NCBI GenBank assembly: GCA_016125275.1
Contig: WGMB01000010.1
Location: 248,001 to 312,000 of the forward strand
Origin: Acidobacteriota bacterium
GTDB lineage: Bacteria; Acidobacteriota; Terriglobia; Bryobacterales; UBA6623
Direction: 5' to 3'
Length of the DNA stretch: 64,000 nucleotides
Shown: one piece after another, positions 9,033-34,219 of the stretch
Position numbering within the stretch: position 1 is the first letter of the stretch
Layout: every line of letters starts with the position of its first letter
Notes under the pieces: model-generated
Databases searched by the model: none
What the model was told of the DNA's origin: nothing
What the model saw: only the letters and a program-made list of their open reading frames with translations
Position numbers and translations under genes: made by a program

Positions 9033-9593
9033 CTAATCAACCGGCTCGCGGCAGGTGCATGACCCCTCCGACTCCCTCATGGCCTGGATCAACTGGCTGA
9101 GGTGGGCGTCGGACTCGTCCTCACGGTCCAGCATGGGCTGGAACGGCTTCCAATCGGATCGGAACTCCGCCTGCCATGGGTAGAATCCGCTCTTGTCCGG
9201 CCAAACGCACTGCAGCATCGGAAAATCGCGGGAACCGTAAAACCAAAGATCCCAGCCGACCAGCCAGTCGTACCATTTCGGGAGAACAGGCCGTAGCGCA
9301 CAAACGAAGTCCCCTTCAAGCAGGTCCTTGACGACAGATCCGGAGGTGAGGGCAAGCCCCTCTTCCCTCGCTTGCCGGAAGGTCTCGTTGATGACGAACT
9401 GAGCGACGGCCGGCTCGAGACCGAACACAATCAACTCGGGTCCGCCGGTCTGATCATGGCTCCCGACGCTGTAGCACCACGGAGGACTTCCCGTGACGCT
9501 AATGATGTGGCAGCCGTGTTCCTCGATGTCCGCTATCGCGCGAGACTCTTTTGCTTCGAGCCCCCGAGTCTTCCAGAATTCGAGACGGGTCAT
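9033..9593 (-). CDS. DUF4262 domain protein
   Basis: 186 residues. The central part (CHIISVTGSPPWCYSVGSHDQTG, then PELIVFGL) is the DUF4262 signature, a domain of unknown function often found in actinobacteria and seen near toxin-immunity genes. The C-terminal part has an aromatic-rich stretch (WYDWLVGWDLWFYGS and QCVWPDKSGFYPW) typical of the family. The product ends CTCREPVD at a TAG, after which the frame stays open through a second segment (see the preceding entry). It follows the methyltransferase gene by 7 bases on the same strand, so it is probably cotranscribed with it. No function can be assigned. Confidence 0.8.
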   Translation of the reverse strand: MTRLEFWKTRGLEAKESRAIADIEEHGCHIISVTGSPPWCYSVGSHDQTGGPELIVFGLEPAVAQFVINETFRQAREEGLALTSGSVVKDLLEGDFVCALRPVLPKWYDWLVGWDLWFYGSRDFPMLQCVWPDKSGFYPWQAEFRSDWKPFQPMLDREDESDAHLSQLIQAMRESEGSCTCREPVD

Positions 9594-9600
9594 TCCGGGG

Positions 9601-10266
9601 TCAGCTCTTGGCCGTAAACGTAAGGAAGTACTGGTAGGGCAGGAAGTCGTGCTCGGCGGCGAGGGCGAAGCCGGCCTGGCCCAGCTCGGCGATCATCTCT
9701 TCGCGCGAGATCTTCATGGCGACGCCCGGGCCGACCGGCAGCTCCTTCTTGTAGAAGTCCACGATGGCGATCCGGCCGCCGGGGCGCAGCGCCCGGCCCA
9801 GCTTGGCGTAGTAGGCCTGGCGGTTCTCGATGTGGTGCGCCACGTCGCAGATGAAGATGAGGTCCACGGAGGCGGCCGGGAGCTTGGGGTCGTCGGGCGT
9901 TCCCAGAACCGGCTCCATCTGCGTCAGGCCGGCCTCGCCGGCGCGGGCCGTGAGGTGGTCGATGAGGTCCTGCTGGATGTCGACCGCATAAACCTTCCCG
10001 TTCGGCCCGACGGCCTTCGCCAGCCGCACGGAAAAATAGCCTGAGCCGGCGCCGATGTCCGCCGCCGTTTGGCCGGCGTGGAGGTCCAGCGCCGCGACCA
10101 CCTCGTCCGGCTTCTGCCAGGGGTCCCGGTCGGGGCTCTCGAGGATGCGCGCCCACTCCTCGGCCGAGCGGTGGTGGTGGGGGTTGGGATGGTTGCGCCC
10201 GTGGTGAATCTCTTGGGCCGCGACGGGAACTGCTGCGGCGAAGGCGAGCAAACTGCGGCGCGTCAT
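9601..10266 (-). CDS. Exported class I SAM-dependent methyltransferase
   Basis: 221 residues. Residues 1-18 form a short signal-like sequence (MTRRSLLAFAAAVPVAAQ) with an Arg pair followed by hydrophobic residues and A-x-A. A His-rich stretch follows (HHGRNHPNPHHHR). The Rossmann methyltransferase core begins at about 65 with motif I (AADIGAGSGYFSVRLA), then the acidic residue after strand 2 (VYAVDIQ) and a motif IV region (VDLIFICDVAHHIENR). Distant relation to UbiE/ArsM-type methyltransferases is likely but the substrate is unknown. A signal peptide on a SAM enzyme is odd, because SAM is not expected outside the cytoplasm. It lies 9 bases downstream of the GT39-like gene. Confidence 0.85.
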   Translation of the reverse strand: MTRRSLLAFAAAVPVAAQEIHHGRNHPNPHHHRSAEEWARILESPDRDPWQKPDEVVAALDLHAGQTAADIGAGSGYFSVRLAKAVGPNGKVYAVDIQQDLIDHLTARAGEAGLTQMEPVLGTPDDPKLPAASVDLIFICDVAHHIENRQAYYAKLGRALRPGGRIAIVDFYKKELPVGPGVAMKISREEMIAELGQAGFALAAEHDFLPYQYFLTFTAKS

Positions 10267-10275
10267 GCCCTCATC

Positions 10276-11895
10276 CTAGCGCCGGACCGGGCCGACGGCT
10301 CGCGCTTTCTGGGCTTCGAGCCGGAAGACCTCGAAGGTCGGCCGCCCCAGGCGATCCCGCACCAGGGCGAGCGTCACCGGCCGCAGGCCCAGGCTGTGGA
10401 TGTAGCCGTCGAAACGCGGCCGCACGCGCGGAAAGATCCGGCGGCCGGCGGCGTGGTCGACGAAGACCGAGCCGGGCGCGGCGACCCAGGGCGCGGCTTG
10501 GTCGAGCGCGGCGGGATCAGGCGACTCCGGGCTGGAAAAGGGCTCCATGCCGCCGTGGATGGGCAGACGGCCCTCGCCCAGCACGCGCAACGCGTCGTAG
10601 GCGCCCCAGTCGAGCACCCAGATCTGCTCGGGCTCGAGCGCGCGCAGCTCGTCGCGCAGCCCCGTGATGGCGTTGGTCCAGATCACGGCCGCCCCGTGCG
10701 TATAGCCGCGCCCCACGAACAACGCCAGCATGGCCGCATTGGCCGCCAGGCAGACAGCCAGTGCGACGCCCGCGGGCCGGCGCCACGCCCGGCCCCGCGT
10801 CCACAACGAAGCCAGAAAGCCGGCCACGATGAGATGCGGCAGCGGCCACAGCAGCACCACGTGATGCGAGCCGACGCCCACGTCCTTGCCGATCAGCGTC
10901 TGCGGGTAAGCGATCAGGAATGCCACGGCGGCCCAGCGGCGCAAGCGCTGCTCGGGCTCGTCGCCGCGCCACGGGGTCGCCGCCAGGGCGATCACAAACA
11001 GTAGCGGCAGCGGCGTCGTCGGCCAGTCGAACGGCTTCGGCGACGGCTGTGCGGACTCGCCCGGGGGCGGCTCGACCATGGAGTCCAGCAGCGCCGAGCC
11101 GTCGAGCGTGTCATGCAGTAAGGCCAGCCGATAGCGAAGGTGTTCGGGGCCGAGCTGCGGCTCGAAGGCCCCGGCAGTGGCCCCTTGCGTGGAGAGGTTG
11201 TAGACCAGGAAGGGCGACGCCGCCAGACAGAAGCTCGCCATCCCCAGCCCGACGCGCCGGACCGACAGCATCCGCAGAGCCTCCGTGCGATAGACCAACA
11301 CCGTGGCGCCGACGACGCCGGTCAGCATCCACACGAACAGCGCCTTGTCCCACAATCCCAGTCCAAAAGCGGCGCAGCCGCCGGCGAGCCAGAGTTTGCC
11401 GCCGCCCCCGGCGTACCGCGCCCAGGCCCACAGCCCGGCGATCAGCAGCAGGTGCTGCAACACCGTGGGGCCCCAGTCGAAACAGGTGGTGATGACGAAG
11501 CTCGGATCGCAGGCGAGCAGCAGCGCCGCGAAGGCGGCCATTCGCTCGGAGCCGACCCGCCGCGCCCAGCCGTGGAACAGCCACAGCGTCCAGGCGCCGA
11601 GCAGCAGCACAGGCAGCCGGATGCTGAGCTTGGACGGCGCGAAGGCCTGGAAGACGTGGCGGTAGAGCCAGCTCTTGAGCGTGCCCGCGTAGCTGACCTG
11701 CATCAGCGGAGCCTCGCCCAGCGGCGTGGCGACCACGCCCACGGCGCTCTCCGGCGGGTGAAAGGCCCCCACGCTGACCGCTTCGTCGTTCTGAATGCCG
11801 AGCACGGGCAACAACGCCATGCCGAGGCATAGGAAGGCGGCGATTGCCGCGAGGATACAGCTGGGCCGGCCCGTCCGCCGGATGGGTGAGATCAT
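10276..11895 (-). CDS. Multi-pass membrane glycosyltransferase, GT39/ArnT-like
   Basis: About 539 residues. The start is taken as the ATG at 11895 (MISPIRRTG) because the in-frame extension upstream to 12030 is Arg-rich and lacks coding character. After a first membrane segment, the first extracytoplasmic loop has the acidic pair of the family (GIQNDEAVSVGAFHPP), the expected catalytic aspartate site of GT39/ArnT-type lipid-phosphate-sugar transferases. Some ten further hydrophobic segments follow and then a soluble C-terminal part. The acceptor, whether lipid A, glycan or protein, cannot be read from sequence. It is the first gene of a minus-strand run with the methyltransferase and DUF4262 genes. 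Confidence 0.82.
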   Translation of the reverse strand: MISPIRRTGRPSCILAAIAAFLCLGMALLPVLGIQNDEAVSVGAFHPPESAVGVVATPLGEAPLMQVSYAGTLKSWLYRHVFQAFAPSKLSIRLPVLLLGAWTLWLFHGWARRVGSERMAAFAALLLACDPSFVITTCFDWGPTVLQHLLLIAGLWAWARYAGGGGKLWLAGGCAAFGLGLWDKALFVWMLTGVVGATVLVYRTEALRMLSVRRVGLGMASFCLAASPFLVYNLSTQGATAGAFEPQLGPEHLRYRLALLHDTLDGSALLDSMVEPPPGESAQPSPKPFDWPTTPLPLLFVIALAATPWRGDEPEQRLRRWAAVAFLIAYPQTLIGKDVGVGSHHVVLLWPLPHLIVAGFLASLWTRGRAWRRPAGVALAVCLAANAAMLALFVGRGYTHGAAVIWTNAITGLRDELRALEPEQIWVLDWGAYDALRVLGEGRLPIHGGMEPFSSPESPDPAALDQAAPWVAAPGSVFVDHAAGRRIFPRVRPRFDGYIHSLGLRPVTLALVRDRLGRPTFEVFRLEAQKARAVGPVRR

Positions 11896-31473: not shown

Positions 31474-32610
31474 ATGCTTCGACTTCTTACCGCTACACTT
31501 GCGGTCTTCGCGGCCGCCGGGATGGGCTTAGGCCCGCCCGCGAACGCGCAAACTCAAACCCATATCTGCGCAGACGGTTCGGTGAGGGCGCTGACGCCTT
31601 TCAATCAGAACCCCTGCGGCAGCATCGGCAGGGCCTCGACTGACGCTCCCGCGCCCACCCAGGAGCCTCAGCCCAGTCCCGCGCCCGCGGAGCCGGCGCC
31701 GTCGTCGCCCACGGCCCCGACCACTCCGCCCACGCCCGCGACGGCTTCGAACACGGTCACCTGCGACTACGGTCGAGTCGTCTACCGGACGCCGTTCAAC
31801 CCCAACCCCTGCGCGGTGGCCGCGCCGGCCGAACCCAAGGAAGTGCCGGACGACTTTCTGCTGGTGTTCGGCGGCGATCCGCCCGCGACGGGACTCGCGC
31901 TGGAGGACCGCCTGGCTCAGGAGGTTCTGCACGCGCGCTTTGACAGCTTCGTGACCTCGATCGCGGCGCCGGACTCGTTCCAAGACGGCGCGGCGGCCTA
32001 CGAGCGTTGGGGTCTGGGCGAGCCCGTCTTCTACCGCGACAGCGGCGGCGAACGCGTCCGCTGGCCTTCGGCGGCCTTCGAGCCGGCCGAGGCGGCGCTG
32101 GCTGACGCTGTCGAGCGGCCGGACGCCGTGGTGGCGGCTTGGCAGACGCGGGTGATCCTGCGGGGCGGCGTGCTGCCGGAGCTACACCCGGACGTTCCCG
32201 CCAACGTCGCAAAGTTGCATGAGGCCCGGGTTTCGGAAGAACCCGGGGATGCGCCGGATGTTCCGGCGATCCTGACCTGGGCGTCGACGACCCAGGCTGC
32301 GGCGGCGTTGCACGAGCCCGGCCCGGACTTGGCGGCGTGGGGCCTGTCGAGCGCGCTGAGCTCGCCGGCTCGGCCCGGCGACTGGGTGCGGTTGTACGTC
32401 GCCGGCTTGGCCGCCGACGAAACTGTTTCGGTGCTGCTGGGCGGCGTGCGCCTGGCGCCGGAGGACTTTTCCGTGCTAGAGCTCGCTGGAGGCCTGCATT
32501 GCCTGGCCTTCCAGATTCCCGCCAACGCCAACAGCGGCGACCAGCAGGTCTACGTGGAGACGGCGCGGGCCTCCTCGCAGCCCGGACCCTATTTGTCGGT
32601 GGAGAGGTAA
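31474..32610 (+). CDS. Secreted protein of a new PFNxNPC family, with a Solibacter-type C-terminal domain
   Basis: 378 residues from ATG 31474, preceded by AGGTGG 9 bases upstream; an in-frame start at 31423 would only lengthen the signal peptide. A signal peptide (about 1-25, ending ANAQ) is followed by two copies of C-x2-G-x-V-x4-PFNxNPC (Cys32-Cys48 and Cys97-Cys113) joined by a Pro/Thr/Ala-rich linker. Next comes a core of about 125 residues (PDDFLLVFG, YERWGLGEPVFY, WQTRVILRGGVLPELH). The last 90 residues resemble the Solibacter C-terminal domain (TIGR03437), a likely Ig-like beta fold. No function is known. The next gene encodes its homologue, four bases away. Confidence 0.7.
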   Translation: MLRLLTATLAVFAAAGMGLGPPANAQTQTHICADGSVRALTPFNQNPCGSIGRASTDAPAPTQEPQPSPAPAEPAPSSPTAPTTPPTPATASNTVTCDYGRVVYRTPFNPNPCAVAAPAEPKEVPDDFLLVFGGDPPATGLALEDRLAQEVLHARFDSFVTSIAAPDSFQDGAAAYERWGLGEPVFYRDSGGERVRWPSAAFEPAEAALADAVERPDAVVAAWQTRVILRGGVLPELHPDVPANVAKLHEARVSEEPGDAPDVPAILTWASTTQAAAALHEPGPDLAAWGLSSALSSPARPGDWVRLYVAGLAADETVSVLLGGVRLAPEDFSVLELAGGLHCLAFQIPANANSGDQQVYVETARASSQPGPYLSVER

Positions 32611-32613
32611 GTC

Positions 32614-33198
32614 ATGTTCTATCGCTATCTGCCCTTGCTCCTGCTGATCGGCGGGGCGGCCTACGCCCAGCCCGTCACGCAGACCTGCGCGGACGGTCGC
32701 GTCATTGCCGTCTCGCCGTTCAATCCCAATCCCTGCCGCGTGGGCGTTCCCGCCGTGCGTGAGCAGGTCGAGGCCGAGGCCAGCTCGATGCCCGACGGCT
32801 TCCTCAAGGCCTTCGGTCCGCCGCCGATCAACAGCGGCAACAGCCTGATGGACCGTGTGGCTCGCGTCGAATACGAGCAGGCCATGGAGCACTTCGCCGG
32901 ACTGGTGGAGGAGCCCGAAGGCTTTGAGAAGATGGCCAGCTTCTACTCCCGCTGGGGTCTGGGCGAGCCGGTCTTCTACAAAGGCCGCTACGGCGAATAT
33001 TGCCGGTTCCCGAACGCTCCCTACCGGCCCATGCAGACGACGATGTTCACGGCGACGCACGGCGCCGGCGTGGCGGTGGCTTCCTGGCAGGCGCGCCTGA
33101 TCTTGGAAGGCCACGTCCTCAGCGATCTGCACGCCTTCGTTCCGCCGTGGCTGCAGGCCATCAACAGCGAACGCTTGCAGGCGGCCAACCAGCAGTAG
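32614..33198 (+). CDS. Secreted PFNxNPC-family protein, short paralogue
   Basis: 194 residues. A signal peptide ends near AYAQ (residues 16-19). One Cys-bounded motif (Cys25-Cys41) follows, then the core shared with the previous gene: PDGFLKAFG, YSRWGLGEPVFY (111-122) and WQARLILEGHVLSDLH (158-173). It lacks the linker and the C-terminal Ig-like domain. The pair is a tandem duplication, separated by only 3 bases and so almost certainly cotranscribed. The identical Cys positions suggest a disulfide between the two motif cysteines. Function unknown. Confidence 0.7.
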   Translation: MFYRYLPLLLLIGGAAYAQPVTQTCADGRVIAVSPFNPNPCRVGVPAVREQVEAEASSMPDGFLKAFGPPPINSGNSLMDRVARVEYEQAMEHFAGLVEEPEGFEKMASFYSRWGLGEPVFYKGRYGEYCRFPNAPYRPMQTTMFTATHGAGVAVASWQARLILEGHVLSDLHAFVPPWLQAINSERLQAANQQ

Positions 33199-33385: not shown

Positions 33386-34219
33386 GTGCTCACCCCCTTT
33401 CAATACGTCAAGCGCTACCACGATCTGTGGAGCCCCCAGTTCATGCCCTGGATCGCGCCGGCCGGCTTTTACGGCATCGGCGCGGTGCAGACGCCCGTCA
33501 AGGAGTACAGCAACCTTCGCTACAAGAACAAGGCAGGCAAGTCGCCCTCCGAGCGGCTCGGCTTCAAGGACGATCTGCTGCGGTTTTTCCACCAGCGGGC
33601 GAAGGAGAGCGACTCCGGCGTCAGCTATGACAAAGGCGACGGCTACTCCCTGAGCGGGTCACTGACGATCCGGCCGATCTACGACTTCAAGAAGAGTAGC
33701 TTCATGAGCAGCTTCAGCGGGAAGGCCAGCCCGGAGGTCCTTGCGGACATGATTCAGCTCATCAGCTACTGGCGCTACTGGCAGACGGCCAAACTGGGCA
33801 AGACCGTAGCGCCGCTGGCTACGATCGTCGAAAGCTACCTGGGCGCGGACTGCAACGGCTTCATCGGCAACTATCTACGCGCCAAGTACGCCGGCAACTC
33901 GCTCGGTCCCAGCTCCACCGAGTACACCTATCACGTCAAAGGCAAGCACACCCGCCGGACGAAGTTCAGCGAGATCCGCATGGACGACGTGATCGTCTGG
34001 GAGGGCTACGGCCACGTGACGATCATCCAGGAGCTGATCGACTGGGGCGACGATTGGGCCGTGGTCGAGATCTGCGAATCCCGCAGCAAGGACTACGGCG
34101 GGCCGCAGTGGGCGATCGACGAGCTGACGTGGCAGACGAAGAACGGCAAGCCGAAGCCCGGCAGCTTCCGGATGAGGGGCCAGGATATCGCCTCGATCTC
34201 CGACGTGCGGTACGTGTAG
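33386..34219 (+). CDS. Hypothetical protein with NlpC/P60-like Cys and His motifs
   Basis: 277 residues, GTG start with AGGAG 8 bases upstream; no signal peptide. I do not recognise the N-terminal 140 residues (aromatic-rich, FQYVKRYHDLWSPQF). In the second half ADCNGFIGNY (Cys156) resembles the DCSGxx nucleophile motif of NlpC/P60 peptidases, and VWEGYGHVTII (His210) resembles the GH(V/I) motif that follows. A third polar residue could be Glu228 or Glu231. This suggests a papain-like amidase or peptidase, but the similarity is short. It lies alone after a terminator and converges with the sigma54 activator. Confidence 0.5.
   Translation: MLTPFQYVKRYHDLWSPQFMPWIAPAGFYGIGAVQTPVKEYSNLRYKNKAGKSPSERLGFKDDLLRFFHQRAKESDSGVSYDKGDGYSLSGSLTIRPIYDFKKSSFMSSFSGKASPEVLADMIQLISYWRYWQTAKLGKTVAPLATIVESYLGADCNGFIGNYLRAKYAGNSLGPSSTEYTYHVKGKHTRRTKFSEIRMDDVIVWEGYGHVTIIQELIDWGDDWAVVEICESRSKDYGGPQWAIDELTWQTKNGKPKPGSFRMRGQDIASISDVRYV

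Follow-up and report, generated by a model that had tools for sequence, protein, structure and literature searches.

Two tandem genes in the window, the whole 64,000-nucleotide stretch of acidobacterial DNA that was analyzed, belong to a family whose members are mostly carried by phages, prophages or phage-like clusters. The original prediction had taken them for a family of secreted proteins; a chromosomal family of this sort is not supported. Homology of the members, their location in phages, the clade structure of the family, an exchange of cysteine for aromatic residues and the lack of conserved catalytic residues are direct observations. We tentatively favor the explanation that the family is a nonenzymatic accessory module mobilized by phages, of which the window pair is a Sec-exported and probably disulfide-closed version; its task is what we infer. 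In tailed phages and in a phage-like head-tail cluster of Acidobacteriota, the gene lies within or beside tail and fiber genes or close to those for lysis. The product would be a binding or assembly module, of the fiber or tail accessory type, that acts outside the cytoplasm. Host copies may then have gained export signals, and the window pair would be a domesticated phage gene that was duplicated in tandem.

Architecture and distribution of the family

Both predicted open reading frames are real; they lie on the same strand, 3 bases apart (Table 1). Judged by reading and hydropathy, each protein has a putative Sec signal, namely, a positive start, a hydrophobic stretch and an A-x-A cleavage site at the N terminus (MLRLL...ANA-Q in P0001 and MFYRYLPLLLLIGGAAYA-Q in P0002). 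The pair hence looks secreted, as had been proposed, but a signal peptide is missing from most relatives, and secretion cannot be claimed for the family. The shared core of the two proteins is homologous, with 42% identity over P0002 residues 22-187 (E = 8e-34). Three extras had been claimed for the long protein: the second motif and the Pro-rich linker are present, whereas the Solibacter-type domain matches TIGR03437 (E = 6.4e-6) at 26.1 bits, under the curated cutoff of 29.05 bits.

Table 1. Features of the tandem pair and of the gene that follows it, in window positions
Feature	Position	Strand	Basis
P0001, long protein, 378 aa: Sec signal, motif 1, Pro-rich linker, motif 2, core, Soli_cterm-like C-terminal region	31474..32610	+	
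Putative Sec signal peptide of P0001, residues 1-25, cleavage after A-N-A	31474..31548	+	sequence and hydropathy
Motif copy 1 (P0001), Cys32-Cys48, without a core of its own	31567..31617	+	
Motif copy 2 (P0001), Cys97-Cys113, precedes core	31762..31812	+	
Core domain of P0001, residues 120-250	31831..32223	+	family profile match, E=3.9e-50 (G000:C20:279729-280226)
Soli_cterm-like region of P0001 (TIGR03437, under curated cutoff)	32263..32601	+	
P0002, short protein, 194 aa: Sec signal, single motif, core	32614..33198	+	
Putative Sec signal peptide of P0002, residues 1-18, A-Y-A before Q	32614..32667	+	sequence and hydropathy
Motif copy 3 (P0002), Cys25-Cys41; predicted N-terminal strands 21-24 and 30-34	32686..32736	+	
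Core domain of P0002, residues 57-185; mean pLDDT >90 in most 10-residue blocks	32782..33168	+	AlphaFold2 model
Gene with weak CHAP-like match (E=0.01, under cutoff), 187 bp downstream of pair	33386..34219	+	

The product of the gene downstream of the pair has a plausible Cys/His pair (DCNGFI, GHVTII) beside its CHAP-like match. One of 20 relatives has a match to this protein, a weak one (30% identity), and tblastn found none in phages.

Family members measure about 180 aa; a hairpin motif rich in aromatic residues and proline comes first, and an alpha/beta core comes after it. A search of the 7.55-Mb genome of the window (G000) with P0002 gave four further convincing loci, and a ten-member family profile found six copies there, the pair plus four. 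The count among Acidobacteriota that the original prediction had proposed placed the family in 4 of the 257 genomes of the order. Across the phylum, a sample of 396 genomes gave G000 and one doubtful match; we discounted a profile match in G626 (E=3.9e-5, 60 positions), which is probably due to chance. When 84,980 species genomes were scanned, two contigs matched, both from acidobacterial MAGs and identical with the contigs of G002 and G007. Phage contigs in IMG/VR yielded three loci with the first profile and nine with a Cys-free profile, some contigs being common to both sets. Single-sequence scans of viral data recovered the query itself or nothing, and tblastn against annotated phages and plasmids gave no match.

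Is this a known family under another name? No Pfam family is common to 10 members, stray matches being confined to one member each (TPR_23, E=0.00084; Bcr-Abl_Oligo, E=0.21). PHROGs gave a single match (E=0.02) in one member, and NCBIfam, with P0001 and P0002 as queries, gave Soli_cterm alone; neither covers the core. Two family profiles found nothing convincing among PDB sequences. The profile search proposed at the outset thus produced no strong match to a characterized family. The proposed structure prediction gave confident AlphaFold2 models: the mean pLDDT was 86.6 in that of P0002 and 89.1 in that of phage protein L042. Foldseek found no match at E <= 0.001 in the PDB with either model or in BFVD with the L042 model, and second looks with VIA-align reached a Z of at most 3.6; structure therefore gave no function. 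The claim that the family is undescribed has stood up in all these searches, of Pfam, PHROGs, PDB sequences and folds. It adds a family to acidobacterial phages, in which most genes are unnamed, and none of our searches matched its confident models to a solved fold.

Neighborhoods of the gene and competing explanations

Two of the G000 copies lie in phage-like surroundings. That at L029 occupies a lysis-region position in a Mu-like prophage with a Mu-like transposase, a terminase and a portal, and that at L028 lies in a head-tail cluster with a second terminase/portal set (all by PHROGs). On phage contigs, the gene is found among tail genes (L038, L042, L043, L045 and L047), near lysozyme-like genes, so named by reading, or endolysin genes (L037, L049 and L046, the last with endolysin phrog_315), or, at L036, with a head maturation protease on one side and a virion structural protein on the other (PHROGs). 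Within the head-tail cluster, a variable slot holds the family gene in G000, in G007 and at IMG/VR loci L038, L042, L043 and L045; in four other IMG/VR copies of the cluster that were read, this slot is empty or occupied by a different gene, and hence the family gene is accessory in the cluster. That its position varies across phages, from the tail module to the lysis region to a site between protease and capsid, weakens the case for a virion role.

A separate observation concerns signal peptides of other phage genes. Several consecutive tail/fiber-like genes of acidobacterial phages start with Sec-type signals (a hydrophobic stretch and A-x-A), which is unusual for virion proteins; examples are L036 89-7421, L037 1045-7403 and, in the Mu-like prophage of G000, L059 8139-13772 and 18349-19887.

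The two other copies that G000 has outside the window have host neighbors. The L026 copy (9458-10270) and a type III cluster are transcribed divergently; the cluster encodes FliK and, by Pfam, YscJ/FliF, an EscN-type ATPase, YscD-like FHA plus FliN, and FHIPEP, and the L027 copy (9651-10418) directly follows flgL and flgK (Pfam: flagellin-type FlgL, FlgK). The type III cluster (L026, L056; G000 C3, about 62-81 kb) is nonflagellar, has a YscD/FHA-FliN fusion and TPR chaperone-like genes, and is separate from the flagellar genes on C18. In G002 and G007, which belong to different genera, the copies (L030, L031) lie beside dapF, the only conserved host neighborhood seen.

All four host copies without a Sec signal have an extra, disordered-looking N terminus. 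The pattern F...[LMF] falls at residues 30-34 in the three of them with clear starts and at 31 in L027, given a GTG start; a like motif is found at residue 41 of the FliK-type protein encoded in the type III cluster. In Salmonella FlgD, the gate recognition motif comprises residues 36-40 (PMC8983047). In the copies beside type III and flagellar operons, the F-x3-[LMF] of the extension, near residue 30, may resemble the flagellar gate-recognition motif. Since 16-34% of shuffled single sequences contain F...[LMF], the pattern is weak evidence copy by copy.

These locations allow a bolder proposal, which we regard as possible though somewhat unlikely: a single phage-derived module of no recognized fold may be carried across the envelope of one bacterium by three routes, namely, phage particles, type III/flagellar export and Sec, with the Sec form bearing a swap of aromatic residues for a disulfide. 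If true, a phage tail part would have been turned into a general envelope-acting tool.

Could the gene be a moron that excludes superinfection or modifies the host? Prophages would then express it to shield or change the envelope of the host, and the Sec-exported and other copies would be kept on the chromosome to the same effect. Scattered positions over several phage backbones, accessory status in the head-tail cluster and the Sec-exported form in phage L036 are all consistent with such a role. We nevertheless consider it unlikely, because phage-type members lack a signal peptide in all but one case and because a moron leaves the location beside type III and flagellar operons unexplained.

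A cell wall-acting protein, whether a peptidoglycan hydrolase or its helper, might open the wall for the phage tail, for lysis, for the flagellar rod and for the type III channel, and be sent out by Sec in the window. Its neighbors lend this some color: the lysozyme-like and endolysin genes at L037, L049 and L046, the lysis region of the Mu-like prophage, the weakly CHAP-like gene after the window pair and dapF in G002 and G007. Moreover, the flagellar cluster of G000 has just a short FlgJ-like gene (99 aa, by reading). A hydrolase was in fact our first idea from these neighbors, and it was demoted when no catalytic set of Asp, Glu, Cys or His proved to be conserved in 18 aligned members. Their near-invariant positions are G, P, F, W and Y plus one H and one Q, with no D, E or C among them; the His and the Gln are each lost in one of the 18 members, the His being Ala in L036. 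Conservation dominated by Gly, Pro, Phe, Trp and Tyr speaks for a module that binds or has a structural role rather than for an enzyme. In addition, the phages with a lysozyme-like neighbor already own a lysin, the Mu-like prophage has an M15-like candidate elsewhere (by reading), and no hydrolase family or fold was matched. We conclude that a cell wall-acting protein is quite unlikely.

The direction of transfer could also be reversed, with a substrate or regulator associated with host type III/flagellar export captured by phages and the window pair a paralogue rerouted to Sec. In G000, the two chromosomal copies that are not phage borne and not of Sec type do directly adjoin type III or flagellar operons, and F...[LMF] near residue 30 recurs in the host copies. 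However, FliP, present twice in G000 and once in G007, was not found in 12 other genomes tested, including G002, and FHIPEP has no match in G002 either, although G002 has a family copy with an N-terminal F...L motif. G007 has a flagellar cluster, yet its copy adjoins dapF. Given these cases and the frequency in shuffled sequences, we treat type III export as a lead only, and with the majority of members phage borne, an origin from such a system seems improbable.

Cysteine and aromatic forms of the motif

The pattern C-x2-G-x-V-x4-PFNxNPC is present in both proteins as predicted, with identical spacing in all three copies. These three, all inside the window pair, are the only occurrences in G000; PFNxNPC likewise occurs there exactly three times, all in the pair, and so the pattern is not due to chance. 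Across the remaining 256 genomes of the order, the PFNxNPC DNA pattern gave six matches versus five for a reversed control pattern; all six were in short frames lacking the remainder, and the full motif was found in none of these genomes.

In relatives without a Sec signal, alignments give the motif as x-G-G-x-W-W-x3-P-F-x3-P-W, where x is Tyr, Phe, His or Ser (L033, L037 and L038 deviate), and a conserved G-P-Y-R-Q-A-P precedes it in most of them. The first Cys corresponds to the residue preceding GG and the second to the last Trp. Both cysteines occur in P0001, P0002 and phage protein L036, which too has a Sec signal; both are missing from the other 15 members of the alignment, where Trp occupies the second of the two positions. 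The three Cys-paired members form one clade with support of 100/100. Within it, P0001 and L036 have long branches, and their pairing is unsafe; the deep branches of the tree, the Cys clade excepted, are poorly supported, and the tree thus does not fix a direction from phage to host.

Judged by the alignments, the two motif cysteines are a derived, not an ancestral, state. A small disulfide-closed module had been suggested; it cannot be a family trait, since most relatives lack the cysteines and the Cys version derives from the aromatic-rich motif. A self-standing secreted family built around such a module is highly improbable: the Sec signals and three identical Cys-Cys spacings of the pair are set against a majority of Cys-less, nonsecreted relatives that align over their full length and an exact motif found nowhere else in 256 genomes.

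Under the phage-mobilized module that we favor, the Cys clade is probably exported via Sec, with its hairpin closed by a disulfide; this bond is a reasonable inference because both cysteines were gained jointly and solely in exported members. The simple reading would be that a contacting aromatic/Trp pair was swapped for a disulfide in exported members: aromatic...Trp would have become Cys...Cys in the window pair and L036, and the disulfide would close the hairpin in the oxidizing periplasm or outside the cell. This suggests a route by which a signal-less phage protein may come to be exported, namely, a signal peptide plus a paired aromatic-to-cysteine exchange.

A WW domain was also considered for the sequence GGxWWxVNPFTGxEPW. 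It was rejected for want of a Pfam match, because the Trp residues are missing in the Cys clade and because WW domains have a shorter Trp-Trp spacing than this motif.

The head-tail cluster and likenesses to known systems

Copies of the head-tail cluster were seen in G000 (L028; C6:84000-103500), in G038 (L191-L192) and at IMG/VR loci L086-L165, and IMG/VR lists many contigs of this kind as viral. From terminase to tail, the cluster spans about 15-18 kb, and a reading of its genes found no integrase, replication or lysis genes. Of the 257 genomes of the order, 204 encode its 1310-aa tail protein, mostly once per genome, and they cover 76 of 84 genera; identity is 41-61% among the matches listed. 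In IMG/VR, at least 549 stretches match the major capsid protein. In G000, G021, G051, G057, G188 and G038 (near-complete, single contig), which represent two families, the cluster has dnaB as a neighbor at a distance of up to about 12 kb. In two same-genus pairs, purifying selection acts on most of the cluster genes (dN/dS mostly <0.3), while one 55-codon gene has too few changes to tell; the capsid protein had dN/dS values of 0.02 and 0.06, and the terminase had values of 0.04 and 0.13. On these sequence features, the cluster is unlike an ordinary prophage and is a candidate for an order-wide gene transfer agent of Acidobacteriota. The passages we found in the literature on gene transfer agents and Acidobacteria describe no such cluster. 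This phage-like cluster, conserved across an order of Acidobacteriota, is a more consequential lead than the family itself.

How does the family compare with known systems? The C-terminal half of both models has the same element order as the alpha-beta-beta-beta-alpha folds of dsRBD and HicB-like proteins, and VIA-align gave weak matches to RDE-4 (Z 2.7, rmsd 4.0, 69 aligned), YfiA (Z 3.6, rmsd 4.1, 76 aligned) and HicB (Z 2.4, rmsd 4.1, 64 aligned). However, these Z scores are at background level and there is no sequence similarity, and we do not propose nucleic acid binding. The C-terminal 113 residues of P0001 align to positions 99-224 of the 225 of Soli_cterm, which is named after Solibacter; this match lies outside the core and the Cys motifs and is absent from P0002. 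The host copies beside type III and flagellar operons may resemble early flagellar and type III export substrates with a gate recognition motif, by their disordered-looking N terminus and F...[LMF] near residue 30, whereas the family core is unrelated to the Pfam rod, hook and effector families and the window pair uses Sec signals. From the tail-fiber accessory and assembly genes of tailed phages, the family differs in having no PHROG or Pfam match and in lying also at lysis-region and type III/flagellar sites; like them, its genes are small, lie among tail, fiber, LamG or beta-helix genes and vary among related phages.
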